Positions 8,939 to 54,482 of a stretch of DNA of 64,000 bases are shown here, in pieces (positions within the stretch are counted from its first letter, which is position 1; every line of letters starts with the position of its first letter). The DNA is taken from positions 26,486-90,485 of the forward strand of contig JAGAQV010000015.1 of NCBI GenBank assembly GCA_017622555.1. The letters run 5' to 3'. A model generated the notes under the pieces. It was not told the origin of the DNA. It saw only the letters and a program-made list of their open reading frames with translations, and made no database searches. Source of the stretch: Clostridia bacterium. Its GTDB lineage: Bacteria; Bacillota; Clostridia; Oscillospirales; Acutalibacteraceae. The translations under genes and the position numbers were made by a program.

Positions 8939-10459
8939 TCAGCGGATTTCCGATTTTGGTCGAGCGAAACCCTCAAAATCCGAACTTTTAAGGTATTTCT
9001 TTACATCGGATAAAGTGATTGTACTCTTTACACCCGAATTACTTGTATTATAGGTAATAATTATCTTCTTACCGCCTTTATCGTCTGTATCGAATACAAA
9101 AACTTTGTTTACAAGAGTGTCGATTATTCTTTGCTGATAATCGGGACTGTTTATATCGCCGTTGGTGAGTAAGTCGGTTAGCCAAAATTCTAACCGTTCT
9201 GCACTTACTAACGGCTTTTTATTTTCTTCTACGCTGATTTGCTTCATCAAGTCCGATTTCTGTGCGTTGAGGTCAAGAAGCCTATCTCCCACATCGTCAG
9301 TATCAATACCTTGCTCTACAAGTCGTAAGAGATTGCGTATGCTCGTCTGTGTGAGCTTTAATTCGTTTTGTAATGAAATTAGTCGGCTATGGTCGTTAAA
9401 CTCTTTCTCGGCTAATTCTGCGACTTTGTGGGCTATCTTACGAATAACCCCCGGCTGTAAAATTTTATTTATCGTTTCTTTAACTACTAACTGTTCAATC
9501 CAATCTTTTCGTTCTGCTGCCTTTTTACAAGTGCCTCGTTTCTTTCGGTCGCTACATTTATAATAATTGTAGATATTTCCTGTTTGGCTCGTACCACTTT
9601 CGCCGCACATTGAACTACCACAATGACCGCAGAATATTTTTCCTGTCAGCATATATTGAGCTGGTGCTTTCATTCGACCTGTCGTTCGCTTATTCCTTTT
9701 TAGCATTTCTTGAACTTTATCGAATGTTTCTCGGTCTATGATAGCCGGTACTCCGTTTTCAATTTCTAAATCGTTATATGAATATATACCTATATATTTC
9801 TTATTTACAAGAATACCCGATATACTACCTAAACGGAACGGCATACCTTTTACAGTACGATAACCTTTTTCATTTAATATATCAACTATTTGCCGTTGAG
9901 TTTTACCATTTGCGTATAAATCGAATATCTCTCTAACTATAGGTGCTGTAGCTGGGTCTATCTCAAATTTCTTATCAGCCGTTTTACGATAACCCAAAGG
10001 CATATAACCGCCTGTTATCATACATTTAAGAGCGTTTTCGTGCATACCTCGTTTGATACCTCGGGAGAGGTTTTCCGAATAGTATTCAGCCATACCCTCT
10101 AAAACAGACTCAAGGATAATTCCCTCTGGCTCGTCAGTTATGGATTGTTCAGTATAAAATAATCTAACACCGTTCTTTTTGAGTTGTGCCTTATAATGTG
10201 CAGAATCGTATCTGTTTCGGGCAAAACGGTCGAGTGTGTACATAATGACCGCTTGGAAGTGTCCTTTTGCACTGTCTTTAATTAGTCGTTGAAAATCGTC
10301 CCTCTTGTCTGTTTTACCAGACATAGCTCTGTCAACATATTCACCAATTATAGTTATATTGTTTTGTTCTGCATACGCTCTACATTTACGGATTTGACCC
10401 TCGATAGATTCTTCTCGTTGGTTGTGGCTCGAATAACGAGCATAAATTACACCATTCAT
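8939..10459 (-). CDS. int: Large serine recombinase (prophage integrase)
   Basis: 506-residue large serine integrase. Domains: catalytic resolvase domain at about 1-150 (VIYARYSSHNQREESIEGQ with the nucleophile serine, TLDRFARNRYDS), recombinase domain at about 160-280 (GYMPLGYRKT, YANGKTQRQIVDILN), zinc ribbon CGHCG...C...C at about 290-330, coiled coil at about 350-430. It is transcribed leftward toward attL. It is unusual because the att core lies in a tRNA gene, a target more typical of tyrosine integrases. Confidence 0.93.
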   Translation of the reverse strand: MNGVIYARYSSHNQREESIEGQIRKCRAYAEQNNITIIGEYVDRAMSGKTDKRDDFQRLIKDSAKGHFQAVIMYTLDRFARNRYDSAHYKAQLKKNGVRLFYTEQSITDEPEGIILESVLEGMAEYYSENLSRGIKRGMHENALKCMITGGYMPLGYRKTADKKFEIDPATAPIVREIFDLYANGKTQRQIVDILNEKGYRTVKGMPFRLGSISGILVNKKYIGIYSYNDLEIENGVPAIIDRETFDKVQEMLKRNKRTTGRMKAPAQYMLTGKIFCGHCGSSMCGESGTSQTGNIYNYYKCSDRKKRGTCKKAAERKDWIEQLVVKETINKILQPGVIRKIAHKVAELAEKEFNDHSRLISLQNELKLTQTSIRNLLRLVEQGIDTDDVGDRLLDLNAQKSDLMKQISVEENKKPLVSAERLEFWLTDLLTNGDINSPDYQQRIIDTLVNKVFVFDTDDKGGKKIIITYNTSNSGVKSTITLSDVKKYLKSSDFEGFARPKSEIR

Positions 10460-10778: not shown

Positions 10779-11246
10779 TTAATTCGAGGTCGCTTTTATT
10801 TTCTCATATTCATCGGCAGCAGCCGCTATAACTCTGGATTTACCTACTAAATTTAGTTTGTCGAACATAGACAGTAATTCCATTATTGCAGACATATCTT
10901 CCTCGTCCTTTATAGACACCGAACGGATTTCTCCGTTTTCTGTTGAGTGAGTAAGACCAAGCAGACGGTCAACCAATGCTTGTTTATCGCTATCACAAAG
11001 CTGGTACTGATGAATTAAGTCATTCCATTTAACAGGTTGTTGAAAAGCAGTTCTACCCAATATGTAATCAGCCGACACATCGAAAAAGTCAGCAATCTCG
11101 ACTATGAATTTTTGGTATGAGTGCATCTTTCCGCTTTTCCATTCGCTAACGGCAGTTGGTTGTAAGCCTAAAGCAGAGGTAAGGTCGCTATTTTTAATAC
11201 CTCGTTCTTCAATTAAACCGAGTATTCTTTCAACGCATTTATTCAT
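10779..11246 (-). CDS. CI-like XRE-family phage repressor
   Basis: 155 residues. The N-terminal helix-turn-helix (NSDLTSALGLQPTAVSEWKS) is followed by a DVSADYILGR segment and a C-terminal oligomerisation region without a LexA-type peptidase domain. It is divergent from the early operon and separated from it by promoters carrying TTAGAAATTTTCTAA palindromes, which are probably its operators. It is likely the lysogeny repressor. Confidence 0.85.
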   Translation of the reverse strand: MNKCVERILGLIEERGIKNSDLTSALGLQPTAVSEWKSGKMHSYQKFIVEIADFFDVSADYILGRTAFQQPVKWNDLIHQYQLCDSDKQALVDRLLGLTHSTENGEIRSVSIKDEEDMSAIMELLSMFDKLNLVGKSRVIAAAADEYEKIKATSN

Positions 11247-11270: not shown

Positions 11271-11322
11271 TTAGAAATTTTCTAAAATAATGCTTGACAA
11301 ATTAGAAAATTTCTATTATAAT
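11271..11322 (+). promoter_or_regulatory. Early rightward promoter with CI-type operators
   Basis: TTGACA (11294-11299), 17-bp spacer, TATAAT (11317-11322). The spacer contains TTAGAAAATTTCTAT, and a perfect palindrome TTAGAAATTTTCTAA lies at 11271-11285. A half-site TTAGAAATTT occurs again at about 11461. The same promoter-operator design recurs at 35705. Confidence 0.85.
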
Positions 11323-11858: not shown

Positions 11859-12395
11859 TTGAAAATGGCTTCGACAAAATCTCCTAAAAGGAAGCTGAAA
11901 ATTGTAATGCCCTACATAATTCTTATTGGTATTGTTCTTGTAATCTTCGGTATAGGATTTTTAATCGGTAGATTATGTATTCCTACCAAAGCGATAGACA
12001 ATACCACGCAAACAATTAACTCGACTGTTTCAACCACTGATGAAACAATCGCAGAAACAGAGCCACCTATCGAATGGCTTGAATTTAGAGCTACCGCTTA
12101 TTGCCCTTGCGAAAAGTGTTGCGGTAAGTGGGCGACATTAAGACCTAAAGACGAGAACGGACAAACCATTGTTTATGGTGCAACAGGTATTGTTTTGCAG
12201 TCGGGAGTAAGTATTGCTGCTGACACAAGTATTTACCCAATAGGTACAGTTCTTGAAATTCAAGGTTTTGGTGAGTTTATTGTTCAAGACAGAGGCGGCT
12301 CAATCAAAGGGAATCGAGTAGATATATATTTCGATACCCACGATGAAGCGGTTGATTTTGGAGTTCAAGTAGTGAAAGTTCGAGTTATAAAATGA
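11859..12395 (+). CDS. Membrane-anchored 3D-domain (lytic transglycosylase-like) protein
   Basis: 178 residues: basic N-terminus, one membrane helix (about 17-38), a Thr/Ser-rich linker, then a 3D domain (about 75-178) with ATAYCPCEKCCG, the IAADTSIYPIGT segment and VQDRGGSIKGNRVDIYF holding the conserved aspartates. Such domains act on peptidoglycan. Placement in the early operon, directly upstream of the remote DGR target gene, is unusual. The start is TTG at 11859 (AGGAG, 5 nt) or ATG at 11865. Confidence 0.75.
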   Translation: MKMASTKSPKRKLKIVMPYIILIGIVLVIFGIGFLIGRLCIPTKAIDNTTQTINSTVSTTDETIAETEPPIEWLEFRATAYCPCEKCCGKWATLRPKDENGQTIVYGATGIVLQSGVSIAADTSIYPIGTVLEIQGFGEFIVQDRGGSIKGNRVDIYFDTHDEAVDFGVQVVKVRVIK

Positions 12396-12492: not shown

Positions 12493-12621
12493 ATGTCGGA
12501 AAATAATCCTGTGGTATGTCTTTGTTGGAATTGCGGCAAAGAAATCCACGCTGACGAAAGACAGAATTTCGTAAATGAAGAAATGTGGTGCAACGAATGT
12601 GCCGGAAATGGAGAAAACTAA
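12493..12621 (+). CDS. Small CxxC zinc-ribbon protein
   Basis: 42-residue protein with two cysteine pairs, CWNCG and CNECAG, forming a probable zinc knuckle. Its stop overlaps the ATG of the next gene (TAATG), so the two are translationally coupled. Function unknown; the pairing may be functional for the hypervariable protein. Confidence 0.6.
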   Translation: MSENNPVVCLCWNCGKEIHADERQNFVNEEMWCNECAGNGEN

Positions 12622-13166
12622 TGGAAAACTTAAATGTATTAAATATCGGTGAACGCTTTGAGTTCAAAGGTTTCGAGTGGAAAGTTCTTGATAAAGACGA
12701 AAGCGGTATCTTCGCTGTAATGACAGACTTTTGGCAGACACTTCCGTTCGATACGAACAACTGTAACAACTGGGAAAAATCTTCCCTCCGCAGAGTTCTT
12801 AATAGTGAATTTCTTGACATCATCGGCAAGAAAAATCTTGTTCCTGTCGAGAGCGACCTTATTGCCGATAACGGCGATAGAGCCTACGGTAAAACAACCG
12901 ATTATATCACTATTCTTTCTTGCGACCAGATTAGAAAGTATTTCGGTCTTGTTCCTAAATACGAAAGCGATTGGTCTTGGACACTTACTCCGTGGTCGTG
13001 CATCTCTGGTGGCGCTAACCGTGTTCGTTCTGTTTATCCGACAGGTACCATCTACGACTACGGTGCGAGCAACAGTAACGGAGTCGCCCCAGCTTGTAAA
13101 TTCGCATCTTCTAATCTTAAATTGTGCCGACAGGCACATCTCGTAGAGGTTGACGGCGATGAATAA
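12621..13166 (+). CDS. Remote DGR target: hypervariable DUF6273-like (C-type-lectin-fold) protein
   Basis: 181-residue protein with the DUF6273 pattern: FEFKGFEWKVLD, WEKSSLRRVLNSEFL, DYITILSCDQIRKYF, WSWTLTPWSC and GVAPACKF. The C-terminal 35 codons are a variable repeat of the DGR located 38 kb downstream. There is no signal peptide or membrane helix. The start was chosen at the ATG after GGAGAAAACTA; it overlaps the zinc-ribbon stop by 1 nt and the methyltransferase start by 8 nt. Its early-operon position suggests an intracellular or host-takeover role rather than a virion receptor-binding role, but that is inference. Confidence 0.88.
   Translation: MENLNVLNIGERFEFKGFEWKVLDKDESGIFAVMTDFWQTLPFDTNNCNNWEKSSLRRVLNSEFLDIIGKKNLVPVESDLIADNGDRAYGKTTDYITILSCDQIRKYFGLVPKYESDWSWTLTPWSCISGGANRVRSVYPTGTIYDYGASNSNGVAPACKFASSNLKLCRQAHLVEVDGDE
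12994..13097 (+). repeat. DGR variable repeat VR2 (remote)
   Basis: 104-bp segment aligning without gaps to the template repeat at 50796-50899. There are 16 differences, all at template adenines (of 35); none of the 69 non-A positions differs. The reading frame matches VR1 (Cys at the 5' end, GVAPAC at the 3' end). This pattern is the signature of adenine mutagenesis and retrohoming. Confidence 0.95.
13123..13138. promoter_or_regulatory. DGR target hairpin downstream of VR2 (GACA loop)
   Basis: TGTGCC-GACA-GGCACA, a 6-bp stem with a 4-nt loop, 25 nt after VR2 and inside the coding sequence. The equivalent hairpin after VR1 has an unrelated stem sequence but the same GACA loop, fitting the GRNA loop of known DGR target cruciforms. 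Confidence 0.85.
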
Positions 13167-13920
13167 TTGTTTTCGTAAGAACGGTGTAGCGTTGTTCAAT
13201 CAAGACTGTTTGGAAGTGCTACATTCGTTCCCAGACGAAAGCATTGATTTAATTGTGACAGACCCCCCCTATACTACAACACCCCGAGGTAACGCTGGTA
13301 ATAGTGGAGGAATGTTACAAAAGAAAATCAATAAGGACGGAAAGGTCTTTACCCACAACAGTATTACGGCTCTCGAATATGCTCCCGAGTTTTATCGTTT
13401 ACTCAAAGACGGTAGCCATTGTTACATAATGACGAATCATATACACCTTATCGAATTTCTTAATACCTTTACTGATTTGCGAACTGACGAGGAACGAAAG
13501 CAAGGTAAGAAACCCTACGGCTTTCATTTTATCAAAAGTTTGATTTGGAACAAAGGTAACAAGATACAAGGTCAGTTTTATATGAGCCAATTTGAGTATA
13601 TTTTATTCTTCCGAAAAGGACGAGGGGTAAAAATCAATAACTGTGGAACGGCTGATATTCTCGATATACCGAATAAGAAAACTAAAGGTGCAGACGGTAA
13701 AAATCTACACGATACCGAAAAGCCTGTAGAACTTATGAAAATACTTATCGAAAATTCAAGTCAACCAAACCAAATTGTATTAGACCCTTTTGCCGGGATA
13801 GGCGGTGTGCCAAGAGCTTGTATTCAAAGCGGTCGTAAATGTATTGCTTGTGAAATAGACCCTACCTACTGCGAAACAATGACTGAGTTAGTGGAGAGTG
13901 AAACATTATGCAAGTTATAA
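13159..13920 (+). CDS. Site-specific DNA methyltransferase (N4/N6, DPPY type)
   Basis: 253 residues of the DNA amino-methyltransferase family. Catalytic motif IV TDPPY lies near residues 34-38 and SAM-binding motif I LDPFAGIGG near residue 213, so the order is the beta class. A target-recognition region lies between. No restriction partner is seen nearby; it probably protects phage DNA. The ATG at 13159 overlaps the DGR target gene. Confidence 0.88.
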   Translation: MNNCFRKNGVALFNQDCLEVLHSFPDESIDLIVTDPPYTTTPRGNAGNSGGMLQKKINKDGKVFTHNSITALEYAPEFYRLLKDGSHCYIMTNHIHLIEFLNTFTDLRTDEERKQGKKPYGFHFIKSLIWNKGNKIQGQFYMSQFEYILFFRKGRGVKINNCGTADILDIPNKKTKGADGKNLHDTEKPVELMKILIENSSQPNQIVLDPFAGIGGVPRACIQSGRKCIACEIDPTYCETMTELVESETLCKL

Positions 13921-14153: not shown

Positions 14154-14547
14154 TAAAAAATTAGGTAACGAGTTTGAACGAGCGTTATGTGAATTGTTAT
14201 TCAATAAAGGCTTTTGGGTACATAATTTCGCAAACAAGACAACAGGTCAACCGGCAGATATAATTGCCTGTAAAAATAAAATTGCACTGTTGATTGATGC
14301 AAAAGAGTGTACTCGGGACAGTTACGATACCCGGAGAATAGAGGAAAACCAGAAAAATTCAATGTTTCTTTGGGAGCAGTGCGGAAATGGTTTAGGCTAT
14401 TTCGCTCTAAAACTTTCCGATGAAACTATCTATATGATTAACCATAATGCTATGTTACTTGCTCGGCAGCACAAAAGAACGCTAAATAAAAACGACATAA
14501 TTGCACTTGGAATACCTTTTAAAGATTGGTTGGTGCAGTTTGAATGA
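14146..14547 (+). CDS. RecU/Hjc-like Holliday junction resolvase
   Basis: 133 residues with a PD-(D/E)xK nuclease core: GNEFERALCELL, then PADIIACKNKIALLIDAKE. The size and motifs match phage Holliday-junction resolvases that process recombination or replication intermediates. It fits the polymerase/ERF/YqaJ recombination module downstream. Confidence 0.75.
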   Translation: MNNKKLGNEFERALCELLFNKGFWVHNFANKTTGQPADIIACKNKIALLIDAKECTRDSYDTRRIEENQKNSMFLWEQCGNGLGYFALKLSDETIYMINHNAMLLARQHKRTLNKNDIIALGIPFKDWLVQFE

Positions 14548-15518
14548 GAGAGCCAAATACGCAATATATTTTATCTCTTTCTTATGGTAAGGATAGTTTG
14601 GCTTGTCTTGAGGCGATACGCTTACTCGGTTTGCCTCTTGACAGAATAGTACACGCTGAAATATGGGCGACTGATACTATACCGGCTGACTTACCGCCTA
14701 TGGTCGATTTTAAGCAGAAAGCAGACTGTATTATCGAGGAAAGGTATGGTATTACGGTCGAACATATCTGTGCGACCCGAGAGAGAGAGAGAGAGGAACG
14801 ACTCTCATACGAAAAGCAATTCTACACCTTGCGGTTTAACAAAGAACGACAAGATTACAGTTTGTACGGATTCCCTGTACGAAAAGGACAATGGTGTACT
14901 TCCAAACTCAAAACAGAAGTCCTCACCAAGTTCTTTAATCAAAGTAACATACGAAATGCTGTTCTACGAGATACCGACAAGGGTAACGAAAAACAGTCGT
15001 TTTCAAGACGGAATAGTGGGTTTTCCGATACGAGCGATGCCGTGGTGCAATTCCCGATTGAAAACACGACCGTTGAACAAAGTGCTTTTTCTCAATGCCC
15101 CAAGCACAAGGGGCATAAAACAAATATTGTGCAGTATCTCGGCATAGCAGCAGACGAGCCAGAAAGAATAGAGCGACATACCAAACAAGGCATAATTTTA
15201 CCTCTGGTCGAACTCGGTTGGGACGAACAGATGTGTCGTAAATGGTGTGAAGAAAACGATTTGTTATCGCCTATTTATACTACCGCAACACGAGGCGGTT
15301 GTTGGTTTTGTCATAATCAAGGTGTCGAGCAGTTACGACTTTTGCGAAAAGATTACCCAGAATATTGGGAACTTATGCTCAAATGGGATAACGACAGTCC
15401 TGTTACTTTCCACCCAGACGGACATACAGTACACGATTTTGAGAAAAGGTTTGCTGCCGAAGACAAAGGGCTTATAAAAGCCGGAGATACAAAGTTTAGG
15501 TGGAAACAAGTTCTTTGA
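14544..15518 (+). CDS. PAPS reductase-like protein (mosaic ORF)
   Basis: 324 residues. The N-terminus has the N-type ATP-pyrophosphatase loop SLSYGKDSLACLE; the C-terminal half has LGIAADEPERIERH and GGCWFCHNQG. Phage relatives are thought to act in thiol or DNA-modification chemistry. The middle (about 14940-15090) is odd: a neighbouring frame, not the ORF frame, encodes a second copy of the conserved GFPxR...WCxSxLKT segment already present in frame at about 14868-14930. The ORF therefore carries an out-of-frame homologous insert. A (GA)8 tract lies at 14779-14794. Confidence 0.75.
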   Translation: MREPNTQYILSLSYGKDSLACLEAIRLLGLPLDRIVHAEIWATDTIPADLPPMVDFKQKADCIIEERYGITVEHICATREREREERLSYEKQFYTLRFNKERQDYSLYGFPVRKGQWCTSKLKTEVLTKFFNQSNIRNAVLRDTDKGNEKQSFSRRNSGFSDTSDAVVQFPIENTTVEQSAFSQCPKHKGHKTNIVQYLGIAADEPERIERHTKQGIILPLVELGWDEQMCRKWCEENDLLSPIYTTATRGGCWFCHNQGVEQLRLLRKDYPEYWELMLKWDNDSPVTFHPDGHTVHDFEKRFAAEDKGLIKAGDTKFRWKQVL

Positions 15519-16937: not shown

Positions 16938-18335
16938 ATGGCAATTAAAATTTTAATCGGTGGCTCTCCTTGTACTTATTGGTCTATTGCACAAAAGAAC
17001 AATCGTGAAACCGAAGCCAGTGGTATGGGTTGGGAATTGTTTAAAAATTACCTCATAGCACGAGAAAAATTCAAACCCGATTATTTTCTTTACGAAAACA
17101 ACAAATCGGCAGCACAGCCAATTAAAGACCAAATTAGCCGTGAGTTAGGTGTTGACCTTATGTACATAAACTCGTCTTTGGTATCAGCACAAAACAGACA
17201 AAGGTTTTATGCTTTTAATTGGACTGTCGAGCAACCAGAGGACAGAGGTATTTTATTAAAGGACATTCTCGAAACAGGAGAAGATTTAACAGGTAACGAT
17301 AAGTCTTTTTGCCTCACATCATCATACGGCGGTGCAGTTCCGTGGAATACCATTGAGAGAAATCAACGAAATATGGTAGCTGAACGAATACCAGAGTACA
17401 GTTGTGAAAAATCAAGACCACTGACCGCTTCCTATGCTAACAAGAGTAGTACAGAGGGTAGTTTACCGAGTAATTGTTTCCCGGACAATCCAAACAAACA
17501 AGTTTGGGATATGATTGCCGAGCCTGTTCGAGTAGGAGATTTGCCGAACGCAAAAGGCGAAATAAGTGGTAGTCAAGCAACACGAATTTACAGTGTTGAC
17601 GGAAAGTCTGTAAATTTGGTAGCGAACGGAGGAGGACAAGGTGCTAAAACAGGCTTGTATGCCGTACCGACCGAAAGTGCGATGTTTACCCCTCCGCACG
17701 GCTGGAATAAAGGAATAATGTCATACGAGAAATCTCCCACCTTAACAACTCGAACGGCTACTCAACAGACAAGTGTTGTCATTCAAGATGCAAAAGTTGG
17801 TAAGAAAATAATTAAAGGTGAAAAGCCCCTTGCACTTATCAACAAGGTTTATGAGGTTAAAAACAACATCATAACGATAAACGGCAAGGAATACCCGATT
17901 AAACTTGCAGACGGCTTTTATATCATTCGTAAGTTGACCCCAATAGAGTGTGAGCGATTACAAACTCTCCCCGACAATTACACAAAAGCCGTAAGTAATG
18001 CTCAACGCTACAAAGGTTTAGGTAACGGCTGGACGGCAGAGGTTATTATTCATATTCTTAACGGCATTTTGAAAGATGTTCCGAAAGACGAAGAAATAAT
18101 TGTACTCTCTCTCTATGACGGCATCGGCACAGGGCGATATTGCTTTGACAAAATGGGTTTTACCAATGTCAAATATCACGCTTACGAGATTGACCCATAC
18201 CCTATCAAAGTGGCTATGGACAATTATTCCGACATCATACAACACGGCGATGCTTTTGCAGTCCGTGACGATGATTGGAAACCTCCACAGACTCGTTCGG
18301 AATGGCTTGACGAACTGTTGGAGGTAGAAGAATGA
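16938..18335 (+). CDS. DNA cytosine-5 methyltransferase, circularly permuted
   Basis: 465 residues. The catalytic motif IV (GGSPCTYWS) is at the extreme N-terminus, followed by ENN (motif VI) and SAQNRQRFYAF (motif VIII), a central recognition region, RKLTPIECERLQTLP and GLGNGWT (IX-X). Only then comes the SAM-binding motif I (LSLYDGIGTGRYCF...YEIDP) near residue 392. The motif order IV-X-I is permuted relative to canonical C5 enzymes. Probably protects phage DNA from host restriction. Confidence 0.85.
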   Translation: MAIKILIGGSPCTYWSIAQKNNRETEASGMGWELFKNYLIAREKFKPDYFLYENNKSAAQPIKDQISRELGVDLMYINSSLVSAQNRQRFYAFNWTVEQPEDRGILLKDILETGEDLTGNDKSFCLTSSYGGAVPWNTIERNQRNMVAERIPEYSCEKSRPLTASYANKSSTEGSLPSNCFPDNPNKQVWDMIAEPVRVGDLPNAKGEISGSQATRIYSVDGKSVNLVANGGGQGAKTGLYAVPTESAMFTPPHGWNKGIMSYEKSPTLTTRTATQQTSVVIQDAKVGKKIIKGEKPLALINKVYEVKNNIITINGKEYPIKLADGFYIIRKLTPIECERLQTLPDNYTKAVSNAQRYKGLGNGWTAEVIIHILNGILKDVPKDEEIIVLSLYDGIGTGRYCFDKMGFTNVKYHAYEIDPYPIKVAMDNYSDIIQHGDAFAVRDDDWKPPQTRSEWLDELLEVEE

Positions 18336-20908
18336 TAATTTATACCTACGACTTTGAAGTATTTAAGTATGATTGGCTTGTTGTTTTCAAGCGAATTACA
18401 GACGGAAAATACTTCATATACCACAACGACAATGCCGCAGTTAAACGCTTTATGCGAAATAACGGCGACAGTATTTTGGGCGGTTTTAATGAGAAACATT
18501 ACGACTGCCACATATTAAAAGCCGTAGCTTGTGGTGCAGATAACGCTTTAGTAAAAGAGATTAACGATTATATAATCGCTGGTAATCAAGGCTTCGACCA
18601 TTGGTTTATAAAACAAAATTACCTATGGTTTAACCATTTTGACATCAAAGACGATATGCAAAAAGGTCTTTCACTTAAAGCTATTGAGGGACATTTAGGA
18701 CTCAATGTTGAAGAAACAAGCGTTCCTTTCGATATTGACCGTCCTTTGACCCCCGAAGAACTTGAAATGACTATACATTATTGTAAACACGATGTCGATG
18801 TAGCCGAACATTTAATCAAAATACGAAAAGGTTATCTTGACGGCAAAATGGCTCTCGGTCGTATGAAAGATATACCCGACACAAAGTCGTTATACGCTAC
18901 AAATGCCAAGATAACAGCGATGTTCTTGGGTGCAACACAGCGTAAATGGAATGACGAACGAGAGTATAAATACCCAGAAAATCTAAATCGTGAGCGTATT
19001 CCCCCAGAGGTTTTTGATTTCTTTGAAAAAATACACGACTACTCAATACCGTCTAAAAAATTATTCAAAATGAAATTAAAAACAATGGTCGATGAATGTT
19101 TATTTGTTTACGGCTATGGAGGAATACACGGAGCAATACCGACCTATCAAGAGGAAGAACAAGGCACACGAATAATACGCAACTACGATGTGGCTTCGCT
19201 TTATCCCTCACTAATGATTTACTGTGGTTATACGAGCCGAAACATTGAATCGGCTGCGTTCTACGAAAAGGTATATCACGACAGGCTTGCCGCAAAAGCG
19301 AACGGCGACAAAAAGACGGCTAACACCTTAAAATTGTGCTTAAACACAACTTACGGTGCGATGCTAAACCAATACAACGGACTATTTGACCCTTTAATGG
19401 GGCGGTCAGTATGTATATCAGGACAATTATTTTTAACAGAGTTGGCTTGTGGTTATCTCGAAAAATGCAATACTGTGAAAATTATACAGATAAATACGGA
19501 CGGTGTAATGATTTCGTTCGATAAATCGGAATATGAAGCCGTTAAATCCGTAAATGCAGAATGGGAGAAACGAACACAATTCACTCTTGAAGAAGACGAA
19601 ATCCGCAAGGTCGTCCAAAAAGATGTAAATAACTACATAATTATCAAAAAAGACGGCTCTACAAAAGTCAAAGGTGGTTATTTGACTTATGGTATGTCAC
19701 AGGCTGGAGCTTGGAACATCAACAACAATGCAACTATTATCAAAAAAGCACTTTTGGAATATTTTGCTAACAATGTTCCTGTTGAAGAAACTATTTATGG
19801 TTGCAACGATATTTTTGAGTTCCAATTTATAGCAAAAGCCGGACAGAAATACAAAGAAGCGTATCACATCGTGGACGAAGAGAAAGTTCCTGTTCAAAAG
19901 GTAAACAGGGTTTATGCAACCAAAGACGAAAGATACGGTACTTTAAGCAAAGTCAAAGTTGTAGTCTGTGACGATGACGAGGAAGAACAGGAAAGGTCGC
20001 AAAAGATTGAGAGTTTACCCGAGCATTGCATCATTGACAACGATAACCACCTTACCATAGCGGAAGTGGACAAAGACTTTTACATTAGAGTAGCCCAAAA
20101 AAGAGTCAATGACTTTTTGGGAATTAAAACCAAGAAAGGTAGGAAAACAAAAATGGCAAACACATCTGCTGCCAAAAAGGCAACCGAACAAAAGACGGAG
20201 GGTATGAGCTTTTTAGAAAAACTGTTCTACCTCCAAAACCTAATGGACGAATACGAATGGGAAAAAGACGGCAAAAATATGCACCAAAAGTATAAGTTCA
20301 TTTCCGAAAAACAGTACAAGCACAACTTTAAGGCGGCTCGTAGAAAAGCCGGTCTTCTCTGGGAATGTGAGTGTTTAGGTGCGGTCTATATCCCTAATGT
20401 AAGCGACAAAATGCACCTTGTTAAAGCATCGTTCCTCGGTCGTTTGACCGACCCGAAATCTGGGGAATACAGGGAGTATCGCTTTGAGGGTACGGGTGCA
20501 GACAACGGCGACAAGGCTCTTTATAAAGCCTACACAGGCGGTCTTAAATTCTTCCTTGCAGACCAATATCTCGTTGCAGAGGGTAACGACCCCGAGTTTG
20601 ACGAGAGTGTTGACGAGGATAATAGCGAAGATACTGCTCCTGTTGTAGCATCAACAAAACCGGCTACAAACGAGGAACGCACCGAAATCAAGAACGAACT
20701 TACTGATAAAGATGCTCCGGCTACCAAGTTGCAGACAAATCAGCTTAAAAAGTCGTTGAAGATGTTGCGAGAGGCAGACCCGACACAAGAGGATTTTATT
20801 CAGCAAGTGGCAGAAGCAACTAACAATTTTACCGAAATCAGCAAAGCCAAATGTGAGAAACTTATGCTTAAAATCGGTGAAATGATTGACGAGGCTGGGG
20901 AGGAATAA
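18332..20908 (+). CDS. Family-B DNA polymerase fused to ERF-type annealase
   Basis: 858 residues. The N-terminal 3'-5' exonuclease region (YTYDFEVFKYDW, GGFNEKHYDCHIL) and the polymerase motifs YDVASLYPS (A), KLCLNTTYGAM (B) and INTDGVMI (C) define a phage family-B replicase. After about residue 605 the frame continues into a full ERF-like single-strand annealing protein. A ribosome site (AAAGGTAGG) and ATG at 20154 lie exactly at the junction, and a TAG occurs there in a neighbouring frame. The fusion therefore probably arose by a small indel that removed the polymerase stop. Confidence 0.85.
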   Translation: MIIYTYDFEVFKYDWLVVFKRITDGKYFIYHNDNAAVKRFMRNNGDSILGGFNEKHYDCHILKAVACGADNALVKEINDYIIAGNQGFDHWFIKQNYLWFNHFDIKDDMQKGLSLKAIEGHLGLNVEETSVPFDIDRPLTPEELEMTIHYCKHDVDVAEHLIKIRKGYLDGKMALGRMKDIPDTKSLYATNAKITAMFLGATQRKWNDEREYKYPENLNRERIPPEVFDFFEKIHDYSIPSKKLFKMKLKTMVDECLFVYGYGGIHGAIPTYQEEEQGTRIIRNYDVASLYPSLMIYCGYTSRNIESAAFYEKVYHDRLAAKANGDKKTANTLKLCLNTTYGAMLNQYNGLFDPLMGRSVCISGQLFLTELACGYLEKCNTVKIIQINTDGVMISFDKSEYEAVKSVNAEWEKRTQFTLEEDEIRKVVQKDVNNYIIIKKDGSTKVKGGYLTYGMSQAGAWNINNNATIIKKALLEYFANNVPVEETIYGCNDIFEFQFIAKAGQKYKEAYHIVDEEKVPVQKVNRVYATKDERYGTLSKVKVVVCDDDEEEQERSQKIESLPEHCIIDNDNHLTIAEVDKDFYIRVAQKRVNDFLGIKTKKGRKTKMANTSAAKKATEQKTEGMSFLEKLFYLQNLMDEYEWEKDGKNMHQKYKFISEKQYKHNFKAARRKAGLLWECECLGAVYIPNVSDKMHLVKASFLGRLTDPKSGEYREYRFEGTGADNGDKALYKAYTGGLKFFLADQYLVAEGNDPEFDESVDEDNSEDTAPVVASTKPATNEERTEIKNELTDKDAPATKLQTNQLKKSLKMLREADPTQEDFIQQVAEATNNFTEISKAKCEKLMLKIGEMIDEAGEE
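20154..20908 (+). CDS. erf: ERF-family single-strand annealing protein (internal start)
   Basis: 251-residue product if translation restarts at ATG 20154, which has its own AAAGGTAGG site. The core KYKFISEKQYKHNFKAAR, RKAGLLWE and GTGADNGDKALYKAYTG matches ERF recombinases, which pair complementary strands. It works with the YqaJ-type exonuclease encoded immediately downstream. The C-terminal third is acidic and linker-like. Confidence 0.75.
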
Positions 20909-48454: not shown

Positions 48455-49147
48455 ATGGCTCTTATCGTAAAACAACTTTCGGTCGATGTTGCACAGGAAA
48501 ATATATTCCAGTCAATTATCGCAAAACAGTACGATACGGATTCTCGTTTTCTAACAGTTAGATTAACGAACGAGGGAGAACAGATTACTGTTAGTCCCAC
48601 ATCGGTTATCATCATAAACGCTGTAAGAGAAGATAACGAGGCAAAGGCTTTCGCCGGTACTGTAAACGAAGACGGCACGGTTACAGTTCCTATTACTTAT
48701 TGGATGCTCGAATTGGACGGAATTGTCAAGTGTGATATTTCGGTTATTGACTCCGAGCAAAGAAAATTGACTACAACTTCTTTCACAATAAGCGTAGAAG
48801 CCGCCGCTTACTCTGGTACAGACATTACAGAGAACGAAAGTTACGATGTTCTTGTTTCCCTAATTGGTGAAATATCGGAAATACAAGCAGTCGAAGCCTC
48901 AAGAGTTGAGGCTGAAATTGCGAGAGTAGAAGCTGAAACTGCTCGTATTACTGCCGAACAGGAAAGAATATCGGCAGAAACCGCCAGAGCGACAAGCGAA
49001 CAAAATCGTGTGTCAGCTTGGGCGAACGCTCTCGGCATTAAAGAAATCTATATCAATAATGTCGATGAAAACAAACAATATTTATTTCAGTTGCAAATCG
49101 TAAATGGTAAACCTGTGCTTTATTACGAAGAAGCAACGGCAGAATAA
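48455..49147 (+). CDS. BppU-family baseplate upper protein
   Basis: 230 residues: N-terminal BppU-like beta domain (about 1-115), then a long heptad coiled coil (EASRVEAEIARVEAETARI...) and a short C-terminal domain. Links baseplate to the receptor-binding protein that follows. Confidence 0.8.
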   Translation: MALIVKQLSVDVAQENIFQSIIAKQYDTDSRFLTVRLTNEGEQITVSPTSVIIINAVREDNEAKAFAGTVNEDGTVTVPITYWMLELDGIVKCDISVIDSEQRKLTTTSFTISVEAAAYSGTDITENESYDVLVSLIGEISEIQAVEASRVEAEIARVEAETARITAEQERISAETARATSEQNRVSAWANALGIKEIYINNVDENKQYLFQLQIVNGKPVLYYEEATAE

Positions 49148-49161
49148 GGAGGTAAAAATCA

Positions 49162-50316
49162 ATGTCAGTATTGAATCTTTTATCGGAAGAAACTTTTATT
49201 GAGAAAATGGACAACCAGAACATTCTCCTTGCAGCGATTGCGAGTAACGGCGGCGGTGTGAAAATCACTTCTTGGAGTGCCGTTCAGCAGATTGTTCGTT
49301 TAGGTCTTGCATCAAAGGTTTTTGCTATCGGCGACCAATTCATTAGCACAAAAGGCGATGCACAGTTGGTATGGGACATTATAGGTTTCGACCACGATGT
49401 TCCAGCTGACAGTCAGTTCAAGCACAGTATGACAATTCAACTTCACGATTGTTATACTTCTGCTCAATTCGATGCACGAGAAGCATTATATTACGCTGCG
49501 GAAGATTTACCGGCTGGTACATACAATTTTAGTATTGTATCACAACCTTGGTACACTGCCGATAACGGCAAGACTTTCCAATTTACTTTGGCGAACGATT
49601 TAGCCGCCGGTGGACAGATTGTTCTTGAAATGACCTACAACCAAGCTCTTGCTGGAAAAAGCGTTAAAGTTTACGAAAATAGCACTTCGACAACTGCTAT
49701 CGAAACTTGTACTATCAGTGAGGGAACAGGCGGTACGGCTTTAGGCGAAACAGACGGCTCGGTTGAAAATCTTAACCATATTCAAAGAGCTATTATGGGG
49801 TCTAACCGTTGGTCGCACTCTGCAATCAAGCAGTGGCTTAACAGTAATAAAGCCGCTAACGGTTGGTGGACTGCTAAAAACAATTTTGACAGACCGTCTT
49901 CACAGGTAACATCGGCTGGTTTCTTAACAGATATGGACAGTGAATTTTTGGCGGTTATCGGTGAGGTAAACAAGCGTACTGCTCTCAATACCGTTACTGA
50001 CGGAGGCGGTTATGAAGATAGCAAGGAGTTGATGTTCTTGCTCTCTCGTAGCGAACTGTATGGTGGTTTGGAAAATAGCGTGAATGAGGGTGAGCCTTAT
50101 CCTTACTACGCAAATTATTCCGACCTATCAGCACCGGGTACGGCGGAAGACAGCAACCGAATCAAGTATAGAAACGGCTCGGCACAATATTGGTGGCAGA
50201 GGTCGTGCCACTCTGGTAACGCTAGCCTTGTTCGTCATGGTACTCCGGCAGGTAGCGTCTACGACAACAATGCGCACAGCAGGTACGGAGTCGCCCCAGC
50301 TTGTAACATTATCTAA
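49162..50316 (+). CDS. DGR target: tail/receptor-binding protein with variable lectin-like C-terminus
   Basis: 384 residues. Early residues form a phage-structure domain; from about residue 80 to the end it follows the DUF6273/C-type-lectin pattern (FAIGDQFISTKGDAQLVWDIIGFD, SAIKQWLNSN, LTDMDSEFLAVIGEV, LMFLLSRSELYGG, YWWQRSC, GVAPACNII). The last 38 codons contain VR1, diversified by the adjacent template repeat. It is the main variable adhesin of the virion. Confidence 0.92.
   Translation: MSVLNLLSEETFIEKMDNQNILLAAIASNGGGVKITSWSAVQQIVRLGLASKVFAIGDQFISTKGDAQLVWDIIGFDHDVPADSQFKHSMTIQLHDCYTSAQFDAREALYYAAEDLPAGTYNFSIVSQPWYTADNGKTFQFTLANDLAAGGQIVLEMTYNQALAGKSVKVYENSTSTTAIETCTISEGTGGTALGETDGSVENLNHIQRAIMGSNRWSHSAIKQWLNSNKAANGWWTAKNNFDRPSSQVTSAGFLTDMDSEFLAVIGEVNKRTALNTVTDGGGYEDSKELMFLLSRSELYGGLENSVNEGEPYPYYANYSDLSAPGTAEDSNRIKYRNGSAQYWWQRSCHSGNASLVRHGTPAGSVYDNNAHSRYGVAPACNII
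50201..50304 (+). repeat. DGR variable repeat VR1
   Basis: 104 bp aligning without gaps to the template at 50796-50899: 15 differences at template adenines and 2 T-to-G differences. Ends 12 nt before the target-gene stop. Confidence 0.95.
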
Positions 50317-50327
50317 AATCCAAAAAT

Positions 50328-50345
50328 CTGCTCCGACAGGAGCAG
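50328..50345. promoter_or_regulatory. DGR target hairpin downstream of VR1 (GACA loop)
   Basis: CTGCTCC-GACA-GGAGCAG, a perfect 7-bp stem with a 4-nt GACA loop, 23 nt after VR1. Matches the stem plus GRNA-loop target recognition hairpins of known DGRs. Confidence 0.9.
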
Positions 50346-50364: not shown

Positions 50365-50778
50365 ATGTCAGTTGTTAAGTCAAAGCGTGGCGAGGGTCAG
50401 TTGGTTGTTATAACCAAAGCCGAAGAACTTGCGGAATACAGTGTTAAAATCTGTAAGAACGAGAAACACTTTCCGAAAGCATTTCGCTGGTGCTTTACAA
50501 TGAAAATAGTCGATGAAGCGGTATCAATATACACTCTTATTCGTGAAGCAAATACAATATTTGTTACGACCAAAGAGGATTATAGTATTCGCCGCCGTAA
50601 ACAACTTGAGGCATTGTCGTTGACTGATTCCCTTTTGGGTCTTATCGACCTTGCGAAAAGAGTTTACGGATTAGATTCCGATAGAGTTGAGCATTGGGCT
50701 TTACTTGTAAAGAATGTTAGTAAACCTTTGCGTAAATGGTTGAAATCCGATGAAGAAAGATATAAGGATATAGGTTGA
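50365..50778 (+). CDS. avd: Accessory variability determinant (Avd)
   Basis: 137 residues predicted as a four-helix bundle (AFRWCFTMKIVDEAVSIYTLIREANTI, RKQLEALSLTDSLLGLIDLAKRVYGL), basic, located between the target gene and the template repeat. Avd binds the reverse transcriptase and template RNA in DGR retrohoming. Confidence 0.85.
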   Translation: MSVVKSKRGEGQLVVITKAEELAEYSVKICKNEKHFPKAFRWCFTMKIVDEAVSIYTLIREANTIFVTTKEDYSIRRRKQLEALSLTDSLLGLIDLAKRVYGLDSDRVEHWALLVKNVSKPLRKWLKSDEERYKDIG

Positions 50779-50795: not shown

Positions 50796-50899
50796 GGTCG
50801 TGCAACTCTGGTAACGCTAACAATGTTCGTAATGTTAATCCGACAGGTAACATCAACAACAACAATGCGAACAACAGTAACGGAGTCGCCCCAGATTGT
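50796..50899 (+). repeat. DGR template repeat (TR)
   Basis: 104-bp non-coding donor with 35 adenines, 28 of them in 14 AAY codons in the VR reading frame, between avd and the reverse transcriptase gene. Its transcript is the template for mutagenic cDNA that replaces VR1 and VR2. No GACA-loop hairpin follows it. Confidence 0.95.
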
Positions 50900-51002: not shown

Positions 51003-51065
51003 ATGTCGTTTACTCCCAGAAGTAAGTACGACTACGAACAACGACTAATATTTTTAATCTTATGA
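51003..51065 (+). CDS. Short leader ORF coupled to the reverse transcriptase
   Basis: 20-codon frame (MSFTPRSKYDYEQRLIFLIL) with a good AAAGGAG site, ending in ATGA at the reverse transcriptase start. The RT gene itself has no clear ribosome site, so coupling is likely. May simply be a translation-coupling device. Confidence 0.45.
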   Translation: MSFTPRSKYDYEQRLIFLIL

Positions 51066-52123
51066 ATATAAAAGTTGATGATTTTACAGTTAGAGATTCT
51101 GTTTGCAGTTTCGATAATCTTTATAACGCTATGCTAAAATGTCGCAGAAATGTAATGTGGAAAGATAGCGTGGCTGGATATGTGAAGAACGGATTGATAA
51201 ATATTCTCGATTTGAAACAATCTCTTATGGACGATACATACAAGATTTCGTCATATTCGAGATTTAAGGTTTACGAGCCAAAAGAACGAGATATTATCAG
51301 CACTCGAATTAAAGACAGAGTGTTTCAGCGTAGTCTTTGCGACAACTATTTGTATGAAAATGTAACAAGGTCGTTTATAAACGACAATGCTGCTTGTCAA
51401 ATAGGCAAAGGTACATTGTATGCTCGAAATCGTTTAGTACGGCATTTGCAGAAATATTATCGCAAACACGGTACACAAGGTTGGGTACTTAAATGCGATA
51501 TTAAAAATTATTTCGGTAGCACACCTCACTCGGTCGCAAAAGATGCCATAAGCCGTAGCGTTTATGACGATTGGGCTGTCGGCGAAGTAAATCGCATAAT
51601 TGACAGTTTTAATCAAGGTGAAGATGCTACTATCGGTATGGGACTCGGCTCACAAGTTACACAGTTAATACAACTTGCGGTACTTGACCCTATCGACCAC
51701 CGTATTAAAGAACAGAAACACATTAAATATTATGTTCGATATATGGACGATTTCATTTTAATTCATCACGACAAAGCATATCTCGAAGAATGTCGAAAAG
51801 ATATTGAAAAGTGGTTATCCGAGCTGGGATTGCAGTTGAGCGAAAAGAAAACACAGTTATTCCCTGTAACACAGCCGATTAGTTTTCTTGGTTTTAGTTT
51901 TCGGCTTACCGATACAGGAAAGATTGTAAAGAAAATTCGTCCCGAACGAATATCTCACGAAAGACGGAAACTCCGTAAACTTGCTCAAAGAGTAAAGGAC
52001 GGCAAAATGACCCGAGAGGAAGTCGATAGTTGCTACCAAAGTTGGAAAGCACACGCTTCCTACGGAGATACCCACAATTTGATTTTGCGAATGGACAAAT
52101 TTTACAAAGAATTATGGAGGTAA
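51062..52123 (+). CDS. DGR reverse transcriptase
   Basis: 353 residues. RT motifs: KCDIKNYF (144-151), GMGLGSQ (192-198, the SQ form typical of DGR RTs instead of group II PQG), RYMDD (226-230) and FLGFSFR. No maturase or endonuclease domain. It copies TR RNA with adenine-specific errors and drives homing into both variable repeats. Confidence 0.93.
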   Translation: MNIKVDDFTVRDSVCSFDNLYNAMLKCRRNVMWKDSVAGYVKNGLINILDLKQSLMDDTYKISSYSRFKVYEPKERDIISTRIKDRVFQRSLCDNYLYENVTRSFINDNAACQIGKGTLYARNRLVRHLQKYYRKHGTQGWVLKCDIKNYFGSTPHSVAKDAISRSVYDDWAVGEVNRIIDSFNQGEDATIGMGLGSQVTQLIQLAVLDPIDHRIKEQKHIKYYVRYMDDFILIHHDKAYLEECRKDIEKWLSELGLQLSEKKTQLFPVTQPISFLGFSFRLTDTGKIVKKIRPERISHERRKLRKLAQRVKDGKMTREEVDSCYQSWKAHASYGDTHNLILRMDKFYKELWR

Positions 52124-54406: not shown

Positions 54407-54416
54407 TGGTCGAGGT
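54407..54416 (+). other. attR core of the prophage
   Basis: TGGTCGAGGT, identical to 8623-8632; host tRNA lies to the right and phage DNA to the left. Confidence 0.65.
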
Positions 54417-54482
54417 GACAGGGCTCGAACCTGCGGCATCTAGTTCCCAAAACTAGTGCGCTACCAACTGCGCCACACCTCG
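54407..54482 (-). tRNA. tRNA-Pro(UGG), CCA encoded
   Basis: 76 nt with acceptor stem CGAGGTG/CACCTCG, D arm, anticodon arm CTAGT-TTTGGGA-ACTAG reading anticodon TGG, T arm with GGTTCGAGCC, discriminator A and genomic CCA. The 3' end doubles as the prophage attR core; the phage supplies a new short terminator-like sequence (AGTTCGAACTTTTTT). Confidence 0.92.

Follow-up and report, generated by a model that had tools for sequence, protein, structure and literature searches.

The single diversity-generating retroelement (DGR) of a prophage from a Clostridia bacterium (Acutalibacteraceae) appears to serve two target genes 38 kb apart, one of which is probably an early gene and has a predicted cytosolic product. 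The analyzed stretch, referred to here as the window, comprises 64,000 nucleotides (GenBank assembly GCA_017622555.1, contig JAGAQV010000015.1, positions 26,486 to 90,485), and all coordinates given below are window positions. Phage DGR targets are commonly assumed to be tail adhesins. In the window, the first target gene carries variable repeat 1 (VR1) and adjoins a baseplate-type gene, and the second (12621-13166, plus strand), which encodes a 181-amino-acid (aa) protein of PHROG 9958 and DUF6273-like type, carries VR2. Comparison with the template repeat (TR) and with related loci leaves little doubt that the early gene is a second DGR target, consistent with the proposal of the preliminary description of this DNA that one reverse transcriptase (RT) serves both sites.

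One template repeat and two variable repeats

VR2 (12994-13097, plus strand) aligned without gaps over 104 bp with the TR (50796-50899, plus strand). All 16 differences fell on TR adenines, of which there are 35, and none of the 69 non-adenine positions was altered; the probability that 16 of 16 random differences would land on adenines is 1.5e-9. The alignment and counts reported previously were reproduced identically by this recomputation, and the earlier coordinates for gene and repeat were exact. Apart from VR1, which has 2 non-adenine mismatches, the next-best match to the TR in the window has 35 such mismatches, and TR, VR1 and VR2 were the sole places matched in a whole-genome BLAST search at E 0.001. 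In VR1 (50201-50304, plus strand), 15 of the 35 TR adenines and 2 of the 69 other bases are changed. Seven positions are altered in both repeats (6.9 expected), four of them to the identical base, and VR1 and VR2 were rewritten independently of each other. The last VR2 difference, from GATTGT in the TR to GCTTGT, is common to VR1 and VR2. Because it is found in both VRs and throughout an alignment of the window with nine relatives (10/10 sequences), it is probably a fixed difference between the initiation of mutagenic homing sites IMH and IMH*, leaving about 15 VR2 changes that would be mutagenic. In the reading frame common to both targets, no TR codon can mutate to a stop codon, which is true of two of the three frames.

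The remaining DGR components are grouped with the TR at 50.3-52.1 kb. The 353-aa RT (51062-52123, plus strand) matched PHROG 1423 (8.6e-96) and RVT_1 (3e-17), and its translation contains YMDD, which we take to be the reverse transcriptase motif. The accessory protein Avd (50365-50778, plus strand) matched PHROG 3206 (9.8e-22); its Pfam bAvd score of 19.5 bits lies under the cut-off of 40. The first target gene (49162-50316, plus strand) comes after a BppU_N-domain gene and encodes 384 aa with a DUF6273 C-terminus. The DGR features found comprise an RT, TR/VR pairs that differ almost only at TR adenines, an Avd-type protein, a downstream hairpin, and, in relatives only, adenine-directed variation. 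Two contigs (L241 and L242) with 91-92% identity to the window near the cassette carry a TR identical to that of the window, and their VR1s differ from it at 11 positions (0 non-adenine) and 15 positions (1 non-adenine), respectively, each rewritten differently. Since these VR1s diverge while the TR stays identical, the sequences indicate that the DGR lineage of the window has been active at VR1.

Homing-type hairpins with a GACA loop lie 3' of both VRs, and none is present at the TR. The hairpin 24 nt past VR1 (CTGCTCC-GACA-GGAGCAG, 50328-50345, plus strand) has a 7-bp stem and is intergenic; that 26 nt past VR2 (TGTGCC-GACA-GGCACA, 13123-13138, plus strand) has a 6-bp stem and lies within the coding sequence. 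For Bordetella phage BPP-1, the available text of PMC3240598 reports that the hairpin is required for efficient homing, and it gives the phage DGR rule as a GRNA loop on a GC-rich stem of 7-10 bp at a distance of 4-34 bp. When this sequence was scanned in 3197 overlapping segments of 60 nt, 7 contained a stem of at least 6 bp with a GRNA loop. The VR2 hairpin is present in all ten aligned sequences, the nine relatives having been picked because they share this block, and it occurs in three stem states that are always fully paired. Covariation was found at two of the six pairs, and the encoded residues vary with the stem state (Cys/Arg/His; Ala/Val). In control shuffles, 0 of 500 matched the observed pairing, the changed cells or the covariation score. 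The loops of the ten sequences are GACA, GTCA and GCCA, so the rule for this hairpin is GNCA and not strictly GRNA. Across the wider family, a hairpin of at least 5 bp with a GNNA loop was found near the gene end in 26 of 42 loci.

Natural variation and distribution among relatives

Natural variation was evaluated in 16 pairs of similar loci and in one further comparison; differences were mapped to template adenines for one of the 16 pairs and for the further comparison. In the mapped pair, L075 and L076 differed at 17 positions over 5600 aligned bp; all 17 lay within VR2 and all at adenines of the L075 template, and each of the 12 changed codons was altered nonsynonymously. The L075 record carries its own RT and TR. 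The preliminary description had named an early copy that is fixed, or that varies equally at non-adenine positions, as evidence contrary to its proposal, and the gene in this pair is instead hypervariable at template adenines only. The further comparison set Ruminococcus bicirculans 80/3 against the fecal scaffold MT839794 in the stretch holding the early gene, one of three aligned stretches; 20 of the 42 mismatches in these 2508 bp lay in the 95-nt VR, and 19 of the 20 were at TR adenines. The L075/L076 variation and the covarying coding hairpin together indicate, at the level of sequence, a working second DGR target.

Differences in other pairs were counted in bins, and those at the end of the gene that hold the VR contained 13/13 differences for L111/L116, 12/14 for L104/L108, 15/20 for L004/L006, 15/24 for L005/L006, and, in a gene with a longer tail, 10/12 for L099/L101. 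Concentration at the VR was not seen in every pair, however, since these bins held 0/14 differences for L083/L084 and 2/165 for L004/L005, while L121/L128 were identical and L111/L112 differed once. Pairs with 359 to 2751 differing positions were set aside (L004/L086, L077/L079, L077/L081, L079/L081, L115/L118, and L094/L099). Outside the VR, the ratio of nonsynonymous to synonymous substitution rates (dN/dS) was ∼0.1 in pairs of relatives with measurable dS (e.g., 0.105/0.885 and 0.15/1.2), and other pairs were saturated. By this measure, the early gene of the relatives is under purifying selection outside the repeat. Broken reading frames were observed at a few loci. At L082:8100-8340 (VR2 of G511), the frame is broken inside the repeat, by a homing error or a sequencing error. 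The early gene also loses its frame at the VR in L086 and L106; L086 is unrelated to L004 past that point, and its break is perhaps an assembly jump between repeats.

The gene is uncommon. Among 198 genomes near the host, 6 (counting that of the host itself) contained a relative at E 1e-8, and PHROG 9958 matches at E 1e-10 were obtained in 30 of 394 genomes of the order and in 0 of 14 control genomes. An adenine-restricted VR in a small gene of the PHROG 9958/DUF6273 type, away from the RT, was found in 29 further records, which are not dereplicated. These were G016:C48, Toutatis, Lelie, nd4, nd12, Brigit, G344, G230, G423 and G172; R. bicirculans, L213, L215 and L222; the IMG/VR records G506, G509, G511, G520, G527, G534, G536, G540 and G544, the last being weak (4/22 adenines); G561 and G562; and G441, G171, L218 and L223, in which the RT is on a separate contig. 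With the RT on the same contig, the VR lies ∼7 to 41 kb from the TR. For G441 and G171, the TR matching the gene was located on another contig. No gene-matching TR was found on the contigs examined for G476, G286 and G016:C13, G046 yielded no more than a weak repeat pair distant from the gene, and no RT was detected at E 1e-20 in G476, G286 or G046. The isolate R. bicirculans 80/3 contains a prophage-like region (L238-L240, ∼1731-1764 kb) with RT, Avd, TR and VR1, and its VR2 lies 20 kb away in a 180-aa gene.

The association of gene and RT was examined in IMG/VR records of at least 10 kb. Of 43 such records with the gene, 26 contained an RT, and a VR was found in the gene in 21 of these 26; the same test detected none in G515, G516, G519, G525 and G529, in which an RT is present. 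Among the 21, 11 displayed a second layout, with two VRs ∼0.6 kb apart right beside the TR. Loci with this layout, at a VR spacing of ∼0.5-0.6 kb, are L093, L097, L098, L102, L104, L108-L111, L116, L127 and L219-L221. When genomes were reached from named contigs, 7 of 11 had an RT, and the gene carried a VR in all 7, with L219 showing the tandem layout. A search starting from the RT returned 18 loci, with the records of 9 entering the gene search; those excluded were short, apart from L258, whose 44-kb record had a match of 41 residues. Among the five records of at least 34 kb reached in this way (G561-G565), three had a VR in the small family gene, two distant and one tandem.

The early protein and competing explanations

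The VR2 protein matched PHROG 9958 nearly over its full length (6.4e-48; residues 2-164 of 181, profile positions 5-177 of 210). The previous designation as DUF6273-like is right as a label but weak for this protein, whose Pfam DUF6273 score of 20.0 bits misses the curated cut-off of 23.5; of the nine relatives scanned, five exceed or reach it, three score below it and the last gave no match. Pfam gave no structural N-terminal domain in the VR2 protein or in the nine relatives, and the organization of a tentaclin (an N-terminal lectin domain, then immunoglobulin-like domains) was not found, the protein having 181 aa, no further Pfam domain and a VR near the C-terminus. Searches of PDB sequences with the single protein and with a profile gave nothing useful beyond a weak profile match to 9qa6, an IgA protease (1.3e-4); in the available text of PMC12402451, the N-terminal domain of one protease of this type is named DUF6273. 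Defense-protein models gave no match to the VR2 protein at E 0.01, and therefore no known anti-defense identity can be assigned to it. The maximum of a 19-residue Kyte-Doolittle window was 0.7, compared with 2.84 for the neighboring 3D-domain protein, and no value above 1.6 was reached by any of the 50 complete relatives of more than 150 aa, a set that contains near-duplicates.

The position of the gene was as first described, in an early operon between a 3D-domain gene and a DNA methyltransferase gene, and the lack of a membrane segment in its product also agreed. On the minus strand lie a large serine integrase (8939-10459) and a divergent Cro/CI-type repressor (10779-11246). These are followed on the plus strand by the 3D-domain protein, with its hydrophobic membrane-type segment (11859-12395), a Cys-rich 42-aa open reading frame (ORF; 12493-12621), the VR2 gene, an N6/N4 DNA methyltransferase (13159-13920), and a Hjc/RecU-like nuclease, with a helicase, a second methyltransferase and a DNA polymerase farther along. 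Reading frames overlap the VR2 gene at both ends, by one base at its start (TAATG) and with the methyltransferase start at its end. At the head of this rightward operon is a predicted sigma-70-type promoter with a perfect consensus (TTGACA-17-TATAAT, 11294-11322, plus strand; 12/12), opposed by a minus-strand site matching 11/12, and no plus-strand terminator-like site was found between this promoter and the VR2 gene. When 36 loci were compared by means of a simple ORF caller, 14 had a divergent ORF of the repressor cluster within 7 kb upstream. We consider the VR2 protein to be probably both early and cytosolic, as judged from its gene neighborhood and sequence. Lytic-early expression is the likelier alternative to lysogenic expression, because the predicted early promoter faces the repressor.

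We favor, with moderate confidence, an explanation in which one DGR with two target sites rewrites an early intracellular binder. The single set of RT, Avd and TR would diversify, at VR1, the protein encoded beside the BppU-like baseplate gene and, at VR2, 38 kb off, the 181-aa early protein. Adenine-mutated cDNA derived from the TR would home in trans to VR2, guided by the shared 3' homing block and by a DNA hairpin with a GACA loop that here sits in the reading frame, a step supported by sequence and covariation. A VR2 allele newly written in the genomes of one cycle would take effect immediately in the next infection, because the gene sits in an operon behind a repressor-facing promoter. 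Least certain is the step in which the product, by analogy a cytosolic binder with a C-type-lectin fold, would turn its variable face toward a changeable intracellular partner and not toward a cell-surface receptor. Candidate partners are a host defense or control protein, or a protein of a rival phage; that the partner is a counter-defense or host-control protein is a tentative suggestion, with somewhat less than an even chance of being correct. More speculative again is the generalization that the temperate phages of gut Clostridia possess an intracellular binder diversified by a DGR, in the form of an early protein re-randomized in each phage lineage. If it is true, progeny would enter the next cell with varied, ready-made inhibitors of host defense or of rival phages, resembling an antibody repertoire but intracellular and serving the phage. 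A selected hypervariable early protein would mean that phages need ready-made diversity for a post-entry partner too. The covarying DNA hairpin within the early gene and the R. bicirculans 80/3 isolate prophage, with both targets, offer handles on the question.

Several observations weigh against this explanation. The promoter is a consensus match alone, and sites matching at least 9/12 numbered 7, compared with 5.9 expected. Selection was measured on relatives, and the gene of the window does not figure in the listed pairs, since no relative has more than 62% in common with it outside the VR. Two covariation controls were unexceptional, as both-side pair changes were equaled in 109 of 500 shuffles and pair types in 498 of 500. 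No GNNA-loop hairpin was found in 16 of the 42 wider-family loci, and none was detected after the two VRs of each of Toutatis, Lelie, nd4 and nd12; the hairpin argument is therefore limited to this phage group. The link between gene and RT that had been expected is borne out in the 21 of 26 records noted above but is not absolute, since 17 of 43 gene-bearing records, some of them 36-174 kb long, gave no RT, and no cognate TR was found in G205 and G329, which hold the gene. Two records reached from the RT (G563 and G564) show VR1 only. Finally, the early gene position is compatible with a virion protein.

In the first alternative, both targets would act in adsorption, the product of the early gene being a second receptor-binding or virion protein comparable to Mtd of BPP-1, as hypothesized in the available text of PMC10743442 for target2 of nd4 and nd12. 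The VR2 protein belongs among the DUF6273-like proteins for which a C-type-lectin fold is modeled there, and the TR that serves it also supplies the protein whose gene adjoins a baseplate-type gene. We nevertheless find this role unlikely, though worth serious consideration, given that the gene is surrounded by early, replication and modification genes, both in the window and, as annotated, in Toutatis, Brigit and nd4, and that Pfam detected no structural N-terminal domain. A function in the lysogen, such as superinfection exclusion against variable rivals, would suit a temperate phage in which the hypervariable binder is encoded close to the repressor region and to a 3D-domain protein that bears a membrane-type segment. 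It is quite improbable, however, for a gene in an operon that the repressor is predicted to silence and for a product that itself has no membrane-type segment. VR2 might also be a useless relic, left by duplication of a lectin end and still drawing homing passively, as the gene without a cognate TR found in G205 and G329 and the broken frame of G511/L082 would allow; purifying selection outside the repeat in relatives, covariation of the hairpin and recurrence of the arrangement in many distant phages make this very improbable. An adenine pattern produced by ordinary duplication, gene conversion or assembly error has a negligible chance of being correct, even though repeats can mislead assemblers and L086 and L106 lose their frame at the VR, because assemblies made independently, as well as the complete chromosome of R. 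bicirculans, contain a similar arrangement, VR1 and VR2 share no more changed positions than expected, and the 17/17 result for L075/L076 refutes it for relatives.

Known two-target systems and further features of the window

The two-target arrangement is not new in kind, as such arrangements are reported in PMC10743442, PMC11792537 and PMC12629997. Second DGR targets, one near a methyltransferase, appear in the available texts of papers from 2023-2025. According to that of PMC10743442, the DGRs of nd4 and nd12 each have two targets, the small one of which is suggested to bind the host; the figure cited there for prokaryotic DGR cassettes with two targets is ∼13%. Our recomputation found nd4 and nd12 to resemble the window in having one TR that serves a tentaclin close to the RT as well as a small target, DUF6273-only, whose VR is at the 3' end. 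They differ in that no homing-type hairpin was found behind their VRs, and neither an early-operon position nor a coding hairpin is raised in the available portion of that paper. The Faecalibacterium phages Lelie and CP11 (PMC11792537) likewise have a second VR in a small DUF6273 protein, for which that paper gives no clear function and which we recomputed for Lelie, in a different gene neighborhood; the accessible text reports DGR-type variation in genome alignments of the CP11 group, and no VR activity in reads of Lelie or CP11. The available part of PMC12629997 describes four inducible gut prophage species with a distal second VR and proposes an arms-race role. These prophages, likened to the window by description and not by sequence, likely have other hosts, because the Bacteroidota phages Wilby, Saffi and Shia are tied to the same figure panel.

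FP_Toutatis and FP_Brigit (PMC5883640) also have a small DUF6273-type gene in the early region with an adenine-only VR 37-41 kb from the TR. As far as the available text goes, PMC5883640 names one target per phage and gives no assignable function for the Toutatis target. In FP_Brigit, the second adenine-only VR (L039:4373-4445; 7/18 adenines) is in gp06, directly after helix-turn-helix regulators, and is not mentioned in that portion of the paper. In FP_Toutatis, gp80 (L007:49048-49200), annotated as a small DUF6273 gene, contains the TR itself (49076-49176) and is an apparent misannotation. BPP-1, as described in the accessible text of PMC3240598, shares with the window a TR/VR pair, RT, Avd and a downstream hairpin with a 4-nt loop, but has a single target, a tail-fiber protein, and an 8-bp stem at the gene end. 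The bacterial multi-target DGRs of Treponema denticola and Stenotrophomonas, as cited in the available part of PMC10743442, also use one template, for up to eight targets, but lie in cellular genomes and, by description, have similar target genes. Among the titles and abstract openings searched, none concerned a DGR target behind an early promoter or a covarying coding hairpin.

Three further features of the window were recorded. An 858-aa ORF (18332-20908) matches a DNA polymerase over residues 3-604 and an Erf-like annealing protein over residues 604-853, and is possibly a polymerase-annealing protein fusion. A PAPS-reductase-like protein (14544-15518) with a weak match to SspD (DNA phosphorothioation) is encoded near two DNA methyltransferase genes. 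A tRNA-Pro gene (TGG) is located on the minus strand at 54407-54482.
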